Of a stretch of 57,818 bases of DNA, positions 8,945 through 57,818 are shown piece by piece (position 1 is the first letter of the stretch; every line of letters begins with the position of its first letter). Both the position numbers and the translations under genes were made by a program. The notes beneath the pieces are model-generated. The model was not told the DNA's origin and ran no database searches. It worked only from the letters and a program-made list of their open reading frames with translations. Source of the stretch: an uncultured Methanobrevibacter sp. (GTDB lineage: Archaea > Methanobacteriota > Methanobacteria > Methanobacteriales > Methanobacteriaceae); contig CACXWH010000008.1 in assembly GCA_902771225.1 (NCBI GenBank), forward strand, positions 1 through 57,818, given 5' to 3'.

Positions 8945-9901
8945 TCAATACTTTCTATAATCCTTGCTGAGCTTTAAATTATCCAAATCAACGTCATATA
9001 CTGCTGTATGGCCGTTACACATATCAAATCTTGCTGTGACGTATATTTCATCGGTGAATATAAAGTCAAACCTGTTTTTATCCAGCCTTGCACCGTATCC
9101 GCCGTCACATTCCCTGAACTTAAATCCTGTTTCATATTCGGTTTTGCTGATTGACTTTTGAAATGAACTGTTTTGAAGAAGTCTTGTGTGATCATGGCTG
9201 ACTTCAAAATCCTCAAATATTCTTAAGGCATGATTTTCCTGGCAAAACAAACACCTATATGTGGTCTTGAAGTATTCATGCTCCTTTTCGAAAATGAAAT
9301 GGATGTTTAAAAAGTCGATTTCTTCTATTTTTACAAGCATTGAGTCATTTGAATCCATTAAAATCATTGACCTTGAAACCAGTTCGCCGATTGCTGATTT
9401 GTCATAAACTATCGGCTGCAAAGTTTCTGCAATTTTTTCCCTTGTTTCTTCATCACCTGACTTTTCAAATGATTTTTGACAGTTGACGCAGCTCTTATAA
9501 TTCTTCGGATAAATGTTCTGGCAGTTATCGCAGATGACTATCGGTATATTATGTCTTTCAATGATTTCCATTGCATCATTTTGCCTTTCATCGAATCTGT
9601 TATATATCGTTGTGCATAACTCAGCCACATACATATGGCTGAAGGGATTGTCGCTCAGCTGCTTTTTTTGATATGAATCCAGTTCCTGATAAATTTCAAA
9701 GGCTCCTCTTAAAAAATCAAATGCCAGATCATAGTTCATGGCCCTATAACCGCCATAGAACTGTCTGAAATAGAATCTGAAATCTTCCACTTTCTCATCT
9801 GCCCCGTCATCATCTTCTTTTAAATAGTCCATGTATCTGGTGTCTGGAACGCCGATGTCGTTTCCGTCTCCAGCCGGGTCTCCAACCTGCCATTCTCTCA
9901 T
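8945..9901 (-). CDS. 'EWQVGDP' family protein with an internal zinc ribbon
   Basis: 318 residues, first gene of a leftward operon. The N-terminus 'MREWQVGDPAGDGNDIGVPD' is nearly identical to that of the TPR protein at 29025. A helical region follows (about 40-120, perhaps degenerate TPR), then a zinc ribbon 'CDNCQNIYPKNYKSCVNCQ' at about 130-150. A C-terminal half of unknown fold contains a further 'CLFCQENH' pair. The start at 9901 is chosen because GGTGA lies five bases upstream; the GTG at 9913 overlaps that site. No enzyme motif was seen. Context (TPR-HIRAN, zinc ribbons) suggests a scaffold or nucleic-acid-associated role. Confidence 0.7.
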   Translation of the reverse strand: MREWQVGDPAGDGNDIGVPDTRYMDYLKEDDDGADEKVEDFRFYFRQFYGGYRAMNYDLAFDFLRGAFEIYQELDSYQKKQLSDNPFSHMYVAELCTTIYNRFDERQNDAMEIIERHNIPIVICDNCQNIYPKNYKSCVNCQKSFEKSGDEETREKIAETLQPIVYDKSAIGELVSRSMILMDSNDSMLVKIEEIDFLNIHFIFEKEHEYFKTTYRCLFCQENHALRIFEDFEVSHDHTRLLQNSSFQKSISKTEYETGFKFRECDGGYGARLDKNRFDFIFTDEIYVTARFDMCNGHTAVYDVDLDNLKLSKDYRKY

Positions 9902-9937
9902 GATATTCACCAAAAATTAATTACAACTTAACAATAC

Positions 9938-50826: not shown

Positions 50827-52167
50827 ATGAAAAAAGCATTAATAGTTCATGTAGGAAATAATTACACACGTGCAATTAAATCTATTGAAAAAGTAAAACC
50901 AAATTTAGTTTATTTTATTTACACTAAAACTCATGAAAAATATATTGATTTAATTATAGATGAATCTTCAAAAACTTTTGAAAAAAAACTTAAATTAATT
51001 AGTGATTTTCAAAGTATTAAAGAATCTTATGAAAAATCAAAAGAGATTTTTAAAGAACTTAAAAAAGAAGAATATGAAATTCATGTTGGTGTTTCTAATG
51101 GAACAAAAGCAATGGTTGTTGGTTTATCTTTAGCCTCAGTAGGTTATGACTGTGAATTTTCATATGTTGGATCTGTTAAAAGTGGTAGAGATAAAACAGG
51201 TAAGGTAAAACCTGGTAATGAAAAGGTTTTTGATGAGTTCCATCCTATGAAGCAGTTGGCAACTATTGAAATCAATCGGGCAAAGAGATATTTTAATAAT
51301 TATCAGTTTAGTGAATCTTTATTTTATTTTGAAAAAGCAAAGGAATCATCATATAATACTGAAAGAGTTGATATGTATATAAAAATTGTTAAATTATATC
51401 AAATATGGGATAAATTTGAAAATATGATTTCATATATTAATAATAAGAATAATTATTCAGAAACTACTTTACAATATTATTTAAAAACTATGGTTCAAAA
51501 AGAGATAAATGATAATGAAAATCTTAAAGAATATTTTTATACTAATGAAAGAGATTTTATGAATCAAATGGATAAAAATATAATATTCTTAGAAAATAAA
51601 ATATCTACTAAAGGAAAGATTATAGAAGAAGATATTTATTATTATTTGCCTGATTTATTGAATAATGCTCAAAGAAGAATAGAAGAAGAAAAATTTGATG
51701 ATGCAACAGCAAGATTGTATAGGACTGCTGAATTAATTTCACAAATAAGGTTATATGAACATAATCTCATTGAGAAAAAACGATTAATGGATCATAAAGT
51801 ATTTCATATTCCTAAAGAAGAGCTGGTCAATAAAAGTAATTTAAAATCTTCACAATTCATTTCCCCTAGGCCGGATTTTCAAAATTATAAAAATGAAACA
51901 CTTAAACTTTCATTAAAAGAAAATTTTGAATTATTATGGTGTTTTGATGATAAATTAGCTATTAAATTTTTAAAGGATAAAAAACTTGACAATTTATTGT
52001 CTAATCGAAATAATTCTATATTAGCTCATGGATTAATTCCTGCTGATGGTGAAGATGTTATATTGTTATTCGAAAAATTGATTGATTATTCAAGGAAAAC
52101 TTTTTGTGAATTAGATGAATGTATGGAAGATGCCAAATTTCCAAAATTTAGAGATATTTATGATTAA
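50827..52167 (+). CDS. CARF-HEPN effector, Cas02710/TIGR02710 family (Csm6-like), copy 1
   Basis: 446 residues. The N-terminal CARF domain (about 1-150) carries 'HVGVSNGTKAMVVGL' (GTK at 92-94), the loop that contacts cyclic oligoadenylate in this family. A helical linker (about 155-270) leads to a HEPN domain with 'NNAQRRIEEEKFDDATARLY' and the catalytic 'RNNSILAHGL' (Arg394...His401, R-x6-H). Activated by cOA from Cas10, such proteins degrade RNA. GGTGA precedes the ATG. It is the most divergent of three tandem paralogues, lacking the 'MTVGIG' N-terminus of the other two, which suggests a different ligand or an earlier duplication. Confidence 0.85.
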   Translation: MKKALIVHVGNNYTRAIKSIEKVKPNLVYFIYTKTHEKYIDLIIDESSKTFEKKLKLISDFQSIKESYEKSKEIFKELKKEEYEIHVGVSNGTKAMVVGLSLASVGYDCEFSYVGSVKSGRDKTGKVKPGNEKVFDEFHPMKQLATIEINRAKRYFNNYQFSESLFYFEKAKESSYNTERVDMYIKIVKLYQIWDKFENMISYINNKNNYSETTLQYYLKTMVQKEINDNENLKEYFYTNERDFMNQMDKNIIFLENKISTKGKIIEEDIYYYLPDLLNNAQRRIEEEKFDDATARLYRTAELISQIRLYEHNLIEKKRLMDHKVFHIPKEELVNKSNLKSSQFISPRPDFQNYKNETLKLSLKENFELLWCFDDKLAIKFLKDKKLDNLLSNRNNSILAHGLIPADGEDVILLFEKLIDYSRKTFCELDECMEDAKFPKFRDIYD

Positions 52168-52388: not shown

Positions 52389-53591
52389 ATGACAGTTGGT
52401 ATTGGTAGGGATGACCCTGAAAAATTAGCTAATGCTCTTTTTGAAACTATTATTCAAAGTCGTGCTAATTTGATATTATTTTTTGTTTCAAAGGATTCAT
52501 TTTGCATGATAGATTTGGTTAAGACTATTTATCTCAAAAAGAAAAATAAGGAATTAAAAAATTATAAACCAATTTGTGTTGATAAAATTGATGATTTTGA
52601 TTATTGTTTTGAATTGTTTTCTTCTGCAATAATTAAATTAGATCAATTAGGTTATGAAGTTTTAATTTCTTTTAATTCAGGAACTAAAACCATGTGTGTC
52701 ACTTCAGCTTTGGTTGGTGCATTATATGATAAACAATTAATGTTTCTTGATGCAAAAAGGGGAGAAGATAATTTCTTTACTGGTGGAACTGAAAGTCTTA
52801 GACCTTTAAATCTTTATAGATATCGTGATACTTTAATAGTTCCAAAAGTAAAGTATTTATTTAATAATAATAGATTTGATGCTGCAAAAGCATTGATTGA
52901 TCAAGTATCTTATGATGCAATGAATAAAGATTTATTTAAGGATATTTTTGATGGATATTATTATTTTGATAATGTACAATTTAATAAAGCATTTGATAAA
53001 TTAAAAAACTTATATGAGCTGAATTCTCGAGAATATGGAGAATTTCAAAAGCAATTGAATCAAAATATCGACGCATTAAAGGATATTGTTAATAAAGAAA
53101 ATGATAGATGTTATTATATTTTAGCTTCAATTTTAAATAATGCTAGACGTAGATTTGATGAAAATAAATTTGATGATGCTATAGCTAGACTTTATCGTAG
53201 TTTGGAATTAGTTGCCCAAATTCAACTTTATAATAAATATGGGATAATTACAGAAAATGTAGATATTGATATCTTAAGGAGAGATAAGATTAATTCAAAG
53301 TTCATAAATAGGGTAAAAAAACGAAAATTTAAACGTATAGCTTTAAAGGAAGATTATGAACTATTATTATATTATGGTGATGAATTAGGCAAGTTATATT
53401 ATAAAAATAAAGATGAAATGATGGAATTATCAAATTATAGAAATGATTCTATTTTGGCCCATGGTTTAGTTTCATTAGATGATAAAAAATTTGATAAGCT
53501 AAATAAGAAAGTTTTTGAATTTGCAAGAGTTTTAAAACCCGATATTGATTATTATATAAAAAAAACTGAATTTCCAAAATTTATGGATTAG
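52389..53591 (+). CDS. CARF-HEPN effector, Cas02710 family (Csm6-like), copy 2
   Basis: 400 residues from ATG 52389, but the family N-terminus probably starts earlier. The paralogue at 53697 has nine residues before 'MTVGIG', and in-frame codons upstream here give a similar stretch. They contain no ATG, GTG or TTG. A ribosome-binding site GGTGA (52353-52357) points to ATC 52362 or ATA 52368 as a non-standard or mutated start. CARF motif 'SFNSGTKTMCVTSAL' (GTK at 98-100). HEPN region 'NNARRRFDENKFDDAIARLY' and 'RNDSILAHGL' (Arg351...His358). It should be a cOA-activated RNase. 221 bases separate it from copy 1. Confidence 0.83.
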   Translation: MTVGIGRDDPEKLANALFETIIQSRANLILFFVSKDSFCMIDLVKTIYLKKKNKELKNYKPICVDKIDDFDYCFELFSSAIIKLDQLGYEVLISFNSGTKTMCVTSALVGALYDKQLMFLDAKRGEDNFFTGGTESLRPLNLYRYRDTLIVPKVKYLFNNNRFDAAKALIDQVSYDAMNKDLFKDIFDGYYYFDNVQFNKAFDKLKNLYELNSREYGEFQKQLNQNIDALKDIVNKENDRCYYILASILNNARRRFDENKFDDAIARLYRSLELVAQIQLYNKYGIITENVDIDILRRDKINSKFINRVKKRKFKRIALKEDYELLLYYGDELGKLYYKNKDEMMELSNYRNDSILAHGLVSLDDKKFDKLNKKVFEFARVLKPDIDYYIKKTEFPKFMD

Positions 53592-53696: not shown

Positions 53697-54944
53697 ATGG
53701 GTAGGGATAAAACAGCATTATTCATGACGGTGGGTATTGGTGGTCAGAACAAAGAAAGTTTAGTTAATGGACTTTATACATGTATTGATAAAACAAACAC
53801 TGATTTAATAGTATTTTTTGCATCTGAACAATCAATTGAAGGGATGATTCCTTTTATTAAAAAAGCATATTTAAAAGATAAACAAAGAGAACTCACCCAC
53901 TCCAAAACAATTAAACTAGAAAATGTTGATGATTTTGATCATATTTTCAATAAAATAAAAAATGAAGTTTTAACTTATCAAGATGAGTATAAAATAATTA
54001 TTAATTATAATTCCGGCACCAAAACTATGACTATGACTGCAGCTTTAATTTCAGCATTATATAATACAGATTTAATTTCAGTTATAGGTAAAAGAAATAA
54101 TAAGGGATTTATTGAATCTAAAACAGAACAAATTAATTATTTAAATCTTTATCAATATTATGATGAGTTGTTAATTAATAAATTAAGAGAATATTTTAAT
54201 AATAATAATTTTGAATCTGGAAAATTATTATTTAAAGATATTACTTCAAACAAAATCAATAAAGATGCATATGAAAAATTATTTAATGCATATTATGCTG
54301 CAGATAATGTAAATTTTGAAGAAACATTTGAAAATTTTGATTCTAAATTATTTAAAGAAGAATGTGAAGGTTTAGATAATAATCAATTAGATAATAATTC
54401 TAAAGCTTTTAATATAATCAATATTAAAAATAAAGATGGATCTTACCATTCAGAAAGAGACTATTATATTCTTGCTTCTATTCTAAATAATGCTAGGCGG
54501 AAATATGATGATAACAAATATGATGATGGAATTGCTAGATTATATCGTTCATTAGAACTTATTGCTCAGATTAGATTAAACAAAAAATATGGTATTGATG
54601 CTGGTAATGTTGATATTGCCCTTCTTGAAGATTATTCTGTTGATGAAAAATTTATTAAAAAAATAAAAAATAAAAAAGAAAAAAATATTTCTTTAAATGA
54701 TGATTATATTTTGTTAAAATTATTGGATGATGAATTAGGAATATATTATGAAAAAAATTATAATAAAATTAGAAATATGTTAACCTTTAGAAATAATTCT
54801 ATTTTAGCTCATGGTTTAGATTCATTATCAAAAGAACAATTTAAAAAATTTAATAATGAGGTTCTTAATATTGCACGTTTATTAAAACCAGATATTGATG
54901 ATTTAATTAAATATACAAAGTTTCCAACATTTAAATTAGATTAA
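53697..54944 (+). CDS. CARF-HEPN effector, Cas02710 family (Csm6-like), copy 3
   Basis: 415 residues. N-terminus 'MGRDKTALFMTVGIGGQNKE', CARF motif 'NYNSGTKTMTMTAAL' (GTK at 107-109), HEPN region 'NNARRKYDDNKYDDGIARLY' and catalytic 'RNNSILAHGLDSL' (Arg365...His372). It is closer to copy 2 than to copy 1. All three keep the catalytic Arg and His, so none looks dead. It ends ten bases before cas10, which places it in one operon with the cOA synthase. The in-between insert 'CEGLDNNQLDNNSKAFN' (about 225-240) is not in copy 2. Confidence 0.85.
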   Translation: MGRDKTALFMTVGIGGQNKESLVNGLYTCIDKTNTDLIVFFASEQSIEGMIPFIKKAYLKDKQRELTHSKTIKLENVDDFDHIFNKIKNEVLTYQDEYKIIINYNSGTKTMTMTAALISALYNTDLISVIGKRNNKGFIESKTEQINYLNLYQYYDELLINKLREYFNNNNFESGKLLFKDITSNKINKDAYEKLFNAYYAADNVNFEETFENFDSKLFKEECEGLDNNQLDNNSKAFNIINIKNKDGSYHSERDYYILASILNNARRKYDDNKYDDGIARLYRSLELIAQIRLNKKYGIDAGNVDIALLEDYSVDEKFIKKIKNKKEKNISLNDDYILLKLLDDELGIYYEKNYNKIRNMLTFRNNSILAHGLDSLSKEQFKKFNNEVLNIARLLKPDIDDLIKYTKFPTFKLD

Positions 54945-54954
54945 TAGGGATATT

Positions 54955-56940
54955 ATGGATAAATATCAAAAATTGAAATTAAATGTCTTATTTGAGGATA
55001 TTTTTTTATTTTATAAAAAAGCATTTAATTCAAAAACTTTTGAAAATTTTGTCGACGAATTTATTAATAGATTTTTTCCAAATATTTTATTAGATGATGA
55101 TGTTTCAATGAATATTATTAAAAAAGCAAATATTTTAAATAATTATGATTCTAATAATCTTGGTTTATCTTCAATTTTTTCTAAAATTTCTTTAAATGAT
55201 TCAATTCCTAAAAAATATTATGTACCTTTAATGAAATTAGAATTAAATGAAAAAATATATCCTTCATTAGAATTTAAAAAAAAATCTGATTATATAACTT
55301 TATGGTTTAGTTTTATTAATGAGTTGGAATTTTTAAATAATCATATAAATTTTGATAATTTATTAGCACTATTAAAAAAATATACTTCTACTATTTGTTA
55401 TAATGATGATATTTCATTATATGATCATCTTAAAATAACAAATGCATTGTCTAATTGCATATATTTACAATCCATAAATAAAGATATTAAAAATCCTTTT
55501 TTAATAATTAATGGCGATATTTCAGGTATCCAAAAATTTCTTTATAAAATTTCAAAACCTGGTAAAAAGAAACCAAGTATCAGTAAACGGTTAAGGGGAA
55601 GATCATTATACTTAACTTTATTAACAGAATCTATTGCCAATAGGATTATTTCAAAATTAAATTTAGATTCTACAAATATTATTTTTTGCAGTGGTGGAAG
55701 ATTTACTATTATTGCTCCAAACATTGATAAAACTCATGATTTAATTAATGACTTGGAATCCAAATTAAATATTGAGTTTATAGATAAGTTTAATGCGGAA
55801 TTATATTTAATTTTAGTTAGTCATGAAGTTTCATTTGATGATTTGATGGATTATAGTAATATATCATCTAAATCAAGAAAATTAATCAGTCAAAAGAAAA
55901 AACATAAATTTTTAGGACAATTTAAATATTTATTTAAAGAAGAAAAATTTAAAGATAATGACTTGAAATTATGTAAAATTTGTGGAAATAAGATTTTACA
56001 TGGAGCATCTAACGAAGAACAGGAAATTTGTAATGAATGTAATTCTCAAGAGTTTTTTGGTAAAGTTGTTGCTAATGCAAAATATATTGTAATGTATGAT
56101 AGTTTTGCTGATTATAAATCTACAATTTTTGGTTTAAATTATATGTTCTTTGGTTCTCAGGAAGAAGTAGTAAATTTTGTAAATTTAAATAATTATAATA
56201 ATTTTTACATATATAAATTAAATGATACAAATTTTATTGATATTGCTGATAAAATTTATAATACTAATGTATCTTTTGATTTTAAGTTTATTGGGAATAC
56301 AGTTCCAAATATTGATAATGAAATTTTAACTTTTAAACAGTTATCTGGATTAACAAAAGGTTTAAATAAAATTGGTGTTTTAAAGATGGATGTTGATGAT
56401 TTGGGCGAAATTTTTTATAAAGGTTTTAATAATGATTCTAAATTAAATATATATAGAATTTCATCTCTTAGTTTCTTTTTAGATTTTTTCTTTTTAGGCT
56501 TAATAAATGATATTGCCAATGATTTTCGAGTTTATACTAATTGTGGTTCATATCGAGATGATTTTATTGAAATTAAAGTATATGATTGGGAGGGATATGA
56601 ATCCTTTTTTAAACCTAAAGATAATTTTGATGTTCCAAAGGAACTAGAACGATTTTCAACTTCTACAATATATATTACTTATTCTGGAGGAGATGATTTA
56701 CTTGTATTGGGTCCATATGATGATATTATAAATTTTTCAATTCTATTGCGAGATAAATTTAAATGTTGGACATGTTGTAATAATTCGATTACTATTTCAG
56801 CAGGAGTTGGTGTGTATAATTACATGTTTCCAATAGGAAATGCTTCAATTGAAGTTGAAAGTTTTTTAAATAAATCTAAGAACTGTGGTAAAGATAAAAT
56901 TACCATATTTAATCAAACATTAAGTTGGGATGATGAAATT
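54955..56940 (+). CDS. csm1: Cas10/Csm1, type III CRISPR; 3' end replaced by foreign sequence
   Basis: About 660 genuine residues. Palm 1 'INGDISGIQKFLYKI' (about 185-199) with 'RLRGRSLYLTLLTESIA'; a zinc-binding insert 'CKICGN...CNEC' (about 340-362); palm 2 with 'LKMDVDDLGEIFYKGF' and 'YSGGDDLLVLG' (GGDD at 578-581), the cyclase site that makes cyclic oligoadenylate. The canonical 'LLHDIGKFYQRA' is here 'LFEDIFLFYKKA' (residues 12-23), so the HD DNase motif is lost. A typical 'SLYDHLKITNAL' motif is present. The protein should continue with a C-terminal helical domain, but at about residue 657 ('LSWDDE') the frame runs into a phage protein. Csm2-5 and the array are therefore missing. Confidence 0.88.
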
Positions 56941-57408
56941 GACGAAGGTCAGGAGTTTAAGATTGTACCTGATGGCGATTATGAATTTGAAGTTAGCAAT
57001 TTTGAACGTGGATATTACGAGGCAAAGGCAGGCTCGAAGATACCAAGTTGTGATCAGGCTGAATACGAATTAAGTATCGAATGGAAGGATGAGGATGGCG
57101 AAATTAGAACAAATAAGCTTACTCTCAGATTGAAGCTCACAAAGAAATTGCAGTGGCTTATTTATGAGTTCTTTGAAAGTATCGGACTTATTGAAAAAGG
57201 TTCAGGACCAAAGAAAATGCCATGGAAGGAAGCTGTTGGATGCAAGGGAATCTGTCGAGTTGGACACCACGATGCAAATGGTAAAAGCTTCAATGACGTT
57301 GTTAAGTGTTATCCTGTAGGGCTTGCACCAAAGGTTGTAGCTAACAAGGGTGTGTCTGACGAGTTTATGCAAATTCCAGAAGGAGCTGAGGAGGTGCCAT
57401 GGAATTAA
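56923..57408 (+). CDS. Phage DUF669-type protein, 5' end missing or fused at the junction
   Basis: In frame with cas10 but unrelated: about 160 residues from 'WDDEIDEGQEFKIVPDGDYE' through 'SNFERGYYEAKAG' and 'FFESIGLIEKGSGPKKMPW', ending 'EEVPWN'. This is the pattern of the DUF669 phage proteins, which lie next to helicases in phage replication modules. Base composition jumps from the low-20s percent GC in cas10 to about 38-50 percent, and codons such as AAG and GGC become frequent. The apparent fusion is most likely an assembly artefact: the shared 'SWDDE' region could have let two genomes be joined. Confidence 0.8.
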   Translation, partial: SWDDEIDEGQEFKIVPDGDYEFEVSNFERGYYEAKAGSKIPSCDQAEYELSIEWKDEDGEIRTNKLTLRLKLTKKLQWLIYEFFESIGLIEKGSGPKKMPWKEAVGCKGICRVGHHDANGKSFNDVVKCYPVGLAPKVVANKGVSDEFMQIPEGAEEVPWN

Positions 57409-57818
57409 GACCTTATCAGAAGGAAGCTATCAAGGCGATTAAGCAAGGTTGGAACGAGCATCAGAAGGAACTTCTGGTGCTGCCAACAGGCACAGGAAAG
57501 ACGGTTGTATTCAGCCAGATTGCCCACGATGAAAGCAAGAATGGCAGGGTGCTGATAATGGCACATCGAGATGAGCTTATAGAGCAAGCAAGAGCCAAGT
57601 ACACGAGTTTAACAGGCGATGCAACCGCCAAGGAAAAAGCATCAGATACGTGCATTGGCTCAAGTGAAAGAGTAGTCGTTGGTAGCGTACAGACCATGCA
57701 AAGGGATAGACGCTTATCGAGATTTAGTCACGACTACTTCGATACTATTATAGTCGATGAAGCGCACCATTGCCTTTCCGACAGCTATAAGAACATACTT
57801 GAGCACTTTCCCGACGCG
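57399..57818 (+). CDS. Phage-type DEAD/DEAH helicase, N-terminal part
   Basis: 140 residues, open at the right edge. 'MELRPYQKEAIKAIKQGW' (motif Q region), Walker A 'VLPTGTGKTVVF', motif Ia 'VLIMAHRDELIEQA', 'GSVQTMQR' and Walker B/DEAH 'TIIVDEAHHCLSDSY' identify a superfamily 2 helicase. The ATG at 57399 overlaps the end of the DUF669 gene by 10 bases and has a perfect AGGAGGTG three bases upstream, a bacterial/phage arrangement. Composition is clearly foreign to the rest of the window. It probably comes from a Firmicutes-type phage or prophage (inference). Confidence 0.88.
   Translation, partial: MELRPYQKEAIKAIKQGWNEHQKELLVLPTGTGKTVVFSQIAHDESKNGRVLIMAHRDELIEQARAKYTSLTGDATAKEKASDTCIGSSERVVVGSVQTMQRDRRLSRFSHDYFDTIIVDEAHHCLSDSYKNILEHFPDA

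Follow-up and report, generated by a model that had tools for sequence, protein, structure and literature searches.

An apparent in-frame fusion of cas10 with a phage gene in a Methanobrevibacter contig is very probably an assembly chimera

The reading frame under study

At the right end of a Methanobrevibacter contig, a single open reading frame of 817 codons (54955-57408) begins as the CRISPR gene cas10/csm1, ends as a phage gene and crosses the join between the two without interruption, which raises the question of whether such a fusion exists in the organism or only in the assembly. A genuine fusion would add a novel kind of type III effector, able to sense phage ssDNA itself. Should the join be false, the methanogen's seeming lack of Csm2-5 and the seeming bacterial phage are both wrong, and an 817-aa "Cas10-SSB fusion" would pass into databases as a predicted protein. 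A literature search combining Methanobrevibacter, Csm1 and type III-A found no paper.

The window, by which we mean the whole stretch of DNA that was analysed (57,818 bp), is the entire contig C8 of the genome G000, and the feature under study is its last 0.9 kb. G000, apparently a metagenome assembly, consists of 2,359,332 bp in 122 contigs with a completeness of 99.88 and a contamination of 1.48. It contains a complete mcrA and therefore includes a methanogen, mcrA being the one methanogen marker covered. Two further, partial mcrA copies lie at contig ends (G000:C5:2-865 and G000:C76:3-1394; L119-L121) and share 94.7% identity over 774 bp, and in the C76 copy about 52 model positions are skipped in frame (about 154 bp by the alignment ends). 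These two copies hint at mixed strains in G000 and perhaps at another misassembly.

The genes upstream of the frame form a defence island (34671-54944) with MTase_II, two REase_II-like genes, DndF, DndG, DndH and three CARF/HEPN genes, followed by cas10. An Rfam search at gathering thresholds gave no match in the window or in C18, a second contig of G000 that is described below. The features needed here are the following:

50827-52167, + strand: CARF-HEPN protein (Csx1/Csm6-like), upstream neighbour of the csm locus (NCBIfam TIGR02710, E 5e-44; PADLOC CARF_HEPN, E 5e-173)
52389-53591, + strand: Csm6-like CARF/HEPN gene 1 (PF09670, E 2e-33; 40% identity to a cas10 neighbour in the same-genus genome G014)
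53697-54944, + strand: Csm6-like CARF/HEPN gene 2 (PF09670, E 1.4e-31; 48% identity to a cas10 neighbour in G014)
54955-56928, + strand: 5' part of cas10/csm1, up to L-S-W (TIGR02578, E 4.7e-126; six same-genus relatives; 44% identity to the Cas10 of G014)
56918-56940, + strand: join zone (GC change point at 56924; end of the Csm1 match at 56940; phage gene of locus L092 identical and in frame over 56918-56936)
56923-57408, + strand: 5'-truncated phage gene of the family phrog_2698, relatives annotated DUF669 or SSB (phrog_2698 profile; 65% identity to an ORF of IMGVR_UViG_3300005279_000044)
57399-57818, + strand: phage DNA helicase, of which the N-terminal 140 codons precede the end of the contig (phrog_16, E 2e-37; PF04851)

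The cas10 part

The cas10 part on C8 is a genuine archaeal gene whose 3' end is absent from this contig. It matches the Csm1/Cas10 families PF22335 and PF18211 in Pfam, and the stretch 54955-56922 scores 422 bits against NCBIfam TIGR02578, for which the cut-off is 170. When the ORF is cut at 56922, positions 90-648 of the 753 in this profile are covered, and in the genome-wide search of G000 the match extends to 56940, at profile position 655. The GGDD of the second palm domain is present (YSGGDDLLVLG here, YSGGDDLLVVG in relatives), whereas the C8 protein differs from its Cas10 relatives, G014 included, in lacking the HD-domain residues that these have kept: it reads EDIFLFYKK where four aligned relatives read HDIGKFYQR and G014 reads KDIGKFYQR, and the later HH of the HD domain is also missing (54955-55250, five relatives aligned). 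Since some Csm1 proteins have lost the HD domain, the missing residues do not exclude Csm1 membership. Judged from its residues, with the GGDD kept and those of the HD domain gone, the C8 Cas10 may signal through cyclic oligoadenylate without cutting DNA. The C-terminal domain that follows the second palm domain is missing on C8. At the position of the join an L-x-W motif is kept in six same-genus Cas10s (three LSW, two LMW, one LAW), where it is followed by HTD, QSD, KSN, ESN, QSN or EEF and in none of them by DDE.

In another genome of the genus, G054, a degenerate cas10 (L023:1389-5177) with GEDD for GGDD and a truncated start stops right after LSWEEFEKIFDF. As this Cas10 ends just after LSWEE, loss of the C-terminus at this point can occur in nature by a stop codon, without fusion. 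The adjoining helicase of G054 is of the DEAD_2/Helicase_C_2 type and has its own frame, which begins after the stop codon. No csm2-5 were seen by eye near this cas10 among the ORFs of at least 90 aa in an 8-kb stretch.

The phage part and its relatives

Residues 651-787 of the ORF match phrog_2698 (E 8e-33), and 56923-57405 matches the same profile with an E value of 3.5e-32 over positions 12-139 of 167; the gene lacks about 8-15 N-terminal codons. The sequence-only reading of this DNA had called the protein DUF669-type. This holds in so far as DUF669 is named in two annotated phage records, while the window protein, like its 65% relative in locus L026, reaches no Pfam family at E 0.001. We use the name DUF669/SSB because the relatives in the phages FP_Lugh and EFC-1 are so annotated and because a published study describes a DUF669-domain phage protein as an SSB that works with Sak4, ssDNA binding being shown for the HK620 member (PMC5928155). 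By analogy with these, the window protein is a putative DUF669-type phage SSB. It is followed by the helicase of phrog_16 and PF04851, whose ATG is preceded by GGAGG at 57390-57394, in agreement with the helicase and bacterial ribosome-binding site that had been read from the letters.

When 67 genomes of the genus were searched with the phage part, by DNA and by protein, 1/67 gave a match, and this was G000 itself. Relatives were found by tblastn in 48 phage records, 44 of which carry the names of Firmicutes hosts (Streptococcus, Paenibacillus, Faecalibacterium, Enterococcus, Bacillus or Flavonifractor) and four of which are uncultured, and in 15/398 genomes of one bacterial family (that of a Clostridiales relative). 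In 58 IMG/VR loci with phrog_2698 relatives, which come from a two-sequence alignment (A1) and are not all independent (L059 is the L026 contig), the helicase lies downstream on the same strand in 56 (in one case 1.1 kb away) and a Sak4-type gene lies upstream in 53, and no locus has a Cas10 match (0/58). The motif frequencies of these loci are biased, as the A1 patterns contain [SD]W[DE]DEI[DE], and were left unused. The donor phage itself was found neither by megablast of 56923-57818 against phage records nor by a search for exact patterns in IMG/VR. Single-sequence protein scans of IMG/VR and of genome contigs gave no confirmed phrog_2698 relative, and those with the helicase gave 6 and 4 relatives.

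Searched separately, the two sides of the join thus lead to Csm1/Cas10 with same-genus relatives on the left and to phage families on the right. The proposal that the right side should not be read as an archaeal neighbourhood is supported, and an independent genome with the same fusion, which would have spoken for a real join, was not found among the 67 beyond G000.

Composition and shared sequence at the join

The turn from cas10 into a phage protein had been placed at about 56925-56945, which is close to the boundaries found here: within the single ORF, Csm1 identity reaches to about 56930-56940 and phage identity begins at about 56918-56923. The exact base of the join cannot be placed because the join zone fits both families. 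A shift in GC content and codon use at the same place had also been proposed, and the first is clear. The best change point, at 56924, separates a GC content of 0.215 on the left from 0.44 on the right, and none of the 5,603 other 890-bp windows of the contig (taken in 10-bp steps) reaches 0.439, the highest being 0.402. Scored for codon use relative to the remainder of the contig, the cas10 part reaches +0.389, the phrog_2698 part -0.023 and the helicase -0.216. Since an ORF at 8945-9913 of the same contig also scores -0.021, codon use alone is only suggestive for the phrog_2698 part.

Near the N-terminus of the phage family, 17 homologues share a tryptophan motif, with W in 17/17, [DE]D after it in 16/17, DDE in 8/17, SWDDE in 5/17 and LSWDDE in 4/17. 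The earlier suggestion that both families carry an SWDDE-like stretch is therefore right for the phage family, whereas the six Cas10s keep L-x-W only. At the DNA level, the phage gene of L092, which reads MAEFERALSWDDEI, has 19 bases identical to 56918-56936 of the window, in a homologous motif and in the same frame, and three further loci have 18 identical bases at this stretch. The search covered 86 phage loci (486 kb), for which the longest match expected by chance is about 12.9 bases; eleven archaeal loci that were compared have at most 12 bases in common with the join stretch, approximately the chance level. In view of the identity with L092, the stretch was plausibly present in the phage donor as far as about 56918, a position left of the GC change point.

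The remainder of the csm locus

The cas10 3' end, csm2-5 and the CRISPR array had been described as missing from the contig, and indeed no csm2-5 were seen within the window, while a simple spaced-repeat scan found no CRISPR array on C8 or C18. When G000 was searched for RAMP proteins, the result pointed to the initial 3 kb of contig C18 (46,952 bp), which starts inside cas10: its third frame reads KNIRNDLSRYYNFIPWIKIPLSWVSLR(L), then a stop. The features on this contig are:

G000:C18:1-82: C-terminus of cas10, last 27-28 codons (15 residues align at 67% to the C-terminus of the G014 Cas10)
G000:C18:94-4020: csm2, csm3, csm4, csm5 and cas6b (Csm2-5 by NCBIfam; Cas6b)

Csm2, Csm3, Csm4 and Csm5 each exceed the curated NCBIfam cut-offs and follow directly on the cas10 tail. 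Csm2-5 adjoining cas10, the arrangement of a type III-A csm operon, is thus present on C18 and absent from C8 alone. The GC content of the csm genes on C18 is 0.195-0.225, compared with 0.215 in the cas10 part of the window. The last 117 aa of the G014 Cas10 have a single match in G000, at C18:27-86, and since this sole match is the C18 tail, 250-odd bases of cas10 are absent from the assembly. In four distinct relatives, the distance from the L-x-W at the join to the point where C18 starts amounts to 83-85 codons.

The genome-wide search of G000 gave one Csm1 match, and as this search is blind to a tail of 27 codons (C18 was not listed), it excludes a second long Cas10 and not every remnant. 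To this extent the one match speaks against the idea that the C18 tail belongs to a second cas10. An overlap of the C18 start with another contig was also considered, and its first 120 bases match C18 alone. The earlier view of the junction as chimeric gains from this contig the remaining end of cas10 together with csm2-5.

Origin of the join

Because most of the real csm continuation begins another contig of the same genome, the apparent fusion is very probably a false join that arose from genome assembly at the right end of C8. The csm locus (type III-A) of the methanogen and a tailed phage of Firmicutes type would have contributed reads that were merged at a short identical stretch of about 18-20 bases around TTAAGTTGGGATGATGA, which encodes L-S-W-D-D in both frames. 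The assembler would then have passed from cas10 into the phage gene and halted about 0.9 kb later, the true continuation of cas10 (about 250 bp unassembled, the last 27-28 codons, csm2-5 and cas6b) being left to C18. When k is small, two genomes can be linked by a de Bruijn assembler at a shared stretch of this kind, and a shared k-mer is the probable cause here. The in-frame 19-base identity with a phage gene offers an explanation for the misjoin and also for the preserved frame: with the same reading frame in both genes along this stretch, no biological cause has to be invoked for the intact ORF. The missing cas10 bases presumably carried the shared stretch too. The two identities of the frame, the break in composition, the orphaned 3' half on C18, the intact locus of G014 and the normal context of the phage module all support a false join.

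A real insertion, in which a bacterial-type phage or prophage entered cas10 and is now flanked by the right end of C8 and the left end of C18, appears very unlikely. It is true that both contigs break off within cas10 and that the C8 end would look no different if an unassembled element lay in between, but 83-85 codons of cas10 are lacking on the far side, so that a clean insertion does not fit, and C18 begins with cas10, no phage sequence being seen at its start. Moreover, the join runs inside the phrog_2698 gene of a replication module, just after the usual position of Sak4, where an integrase or attachment site would not be expected, none of the other same-genus genomes among the 67 carries the phage module, and the GC content is 0.44 against 0.22. 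Less probable still is a real fusion in which the C-terminal domain of Cas10 was replaced in frame by a phage ssDNA-binding domain to give a type III signalling or effector subunit. The shared in-frame codons for L-S-W-D-D account for the frame that is intact over 817 codons, and while the Cas10 of G054 can end at this point, the base composition of the window changes at the same place, the phage gene is accompanied by its own helicase partner, and C18 supplies the matching 3' end of cas10 together with csm2-5. The same join occurs in no independent genome (G000 alone of the 67), nor was Cas10 found in any of the 58 phage loci.

Archaea carry head-tail viruses, which counts for the idea that a native archaeal virus or provirus of the genus, adjoining a decayed csm cluster, makes up the right side, as does the cas10 remnant beside a helicase in G054. 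The G054 helicase, however, is of the other type noted above and has its own frame after a stop codon, no other of the 67 genomes has a phrog_2698 relative in the protein search, the annotated relatives lie in phages of the bacterial genera already listed, and with csm2-5 present on C18 the csm cluster is not decayed; we regard this idea as the least probable of all, close to negligible. No new biology is seen at the join, a real fusion or insertion keeping a small residual probability. C8 should be trimmed at about 56918-56940, and the csm locus should be taken to run from C8 over a gap of about 250 bp into C18. The case is mainly a warning for annotation and shows that two genes joined by mistake can still yield an in-frame ORF if the stretch they share is translated into identical residues in each.

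Comparison with known systems

The same-genus type III-A locus of G014 has the same gene order, with two CARF/HEPN genes, cas10, csm2-5 and cas6b, and is uninterrupted. The two Csm6-like genes on C8 and csm2-5 and cas6b on C18 each have a counterpart there, with 31-61% identity. In contrast to G014, the G000 locus is divided between C8 and C18 and lacks about 250 bp of cas10, and the cas1 and CRISPR-like spaced repeats nearby (near 49-509 of L021) belong to G014.

The phage part resembles a replication module of Firmicutes phages in which Sak4, DUF669/SSB, helicase and primase follow one another. This order is found in FP_Lugh (Sak4-like gene, DUF669 gene, helicase, primase) and consecutively on the 6.2-kb IMG/VR contig IMGVR_UViG_3300005279_000044, which holds the nearest relative (65% over 141 residues). 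In Hayley and Javan68 the helicase directly follows the DUF669-type gene, and in EFC-1 two extra genes lie in between. The window likewise has a phrog_16-type helicase directly after the phrog_2698 gene; it differs from the module in that the N-terminal codons and the Sak4 gene are absent and cas10 stands in their place, the helicase is truncated where the contig stops and the best identity found is 65%.

As to the join itself, chimeric contigs in short-read metagenome assembly arise from shared k-mers, as described in general terms in an excerpt of a published study (PMC7299287). The contig C8 would likewise hold two genomes joined through shared k-mers; the cases in that excerpt mostly concern related species, whereas here the partners appear to be unrelated and the shared stretch very short.
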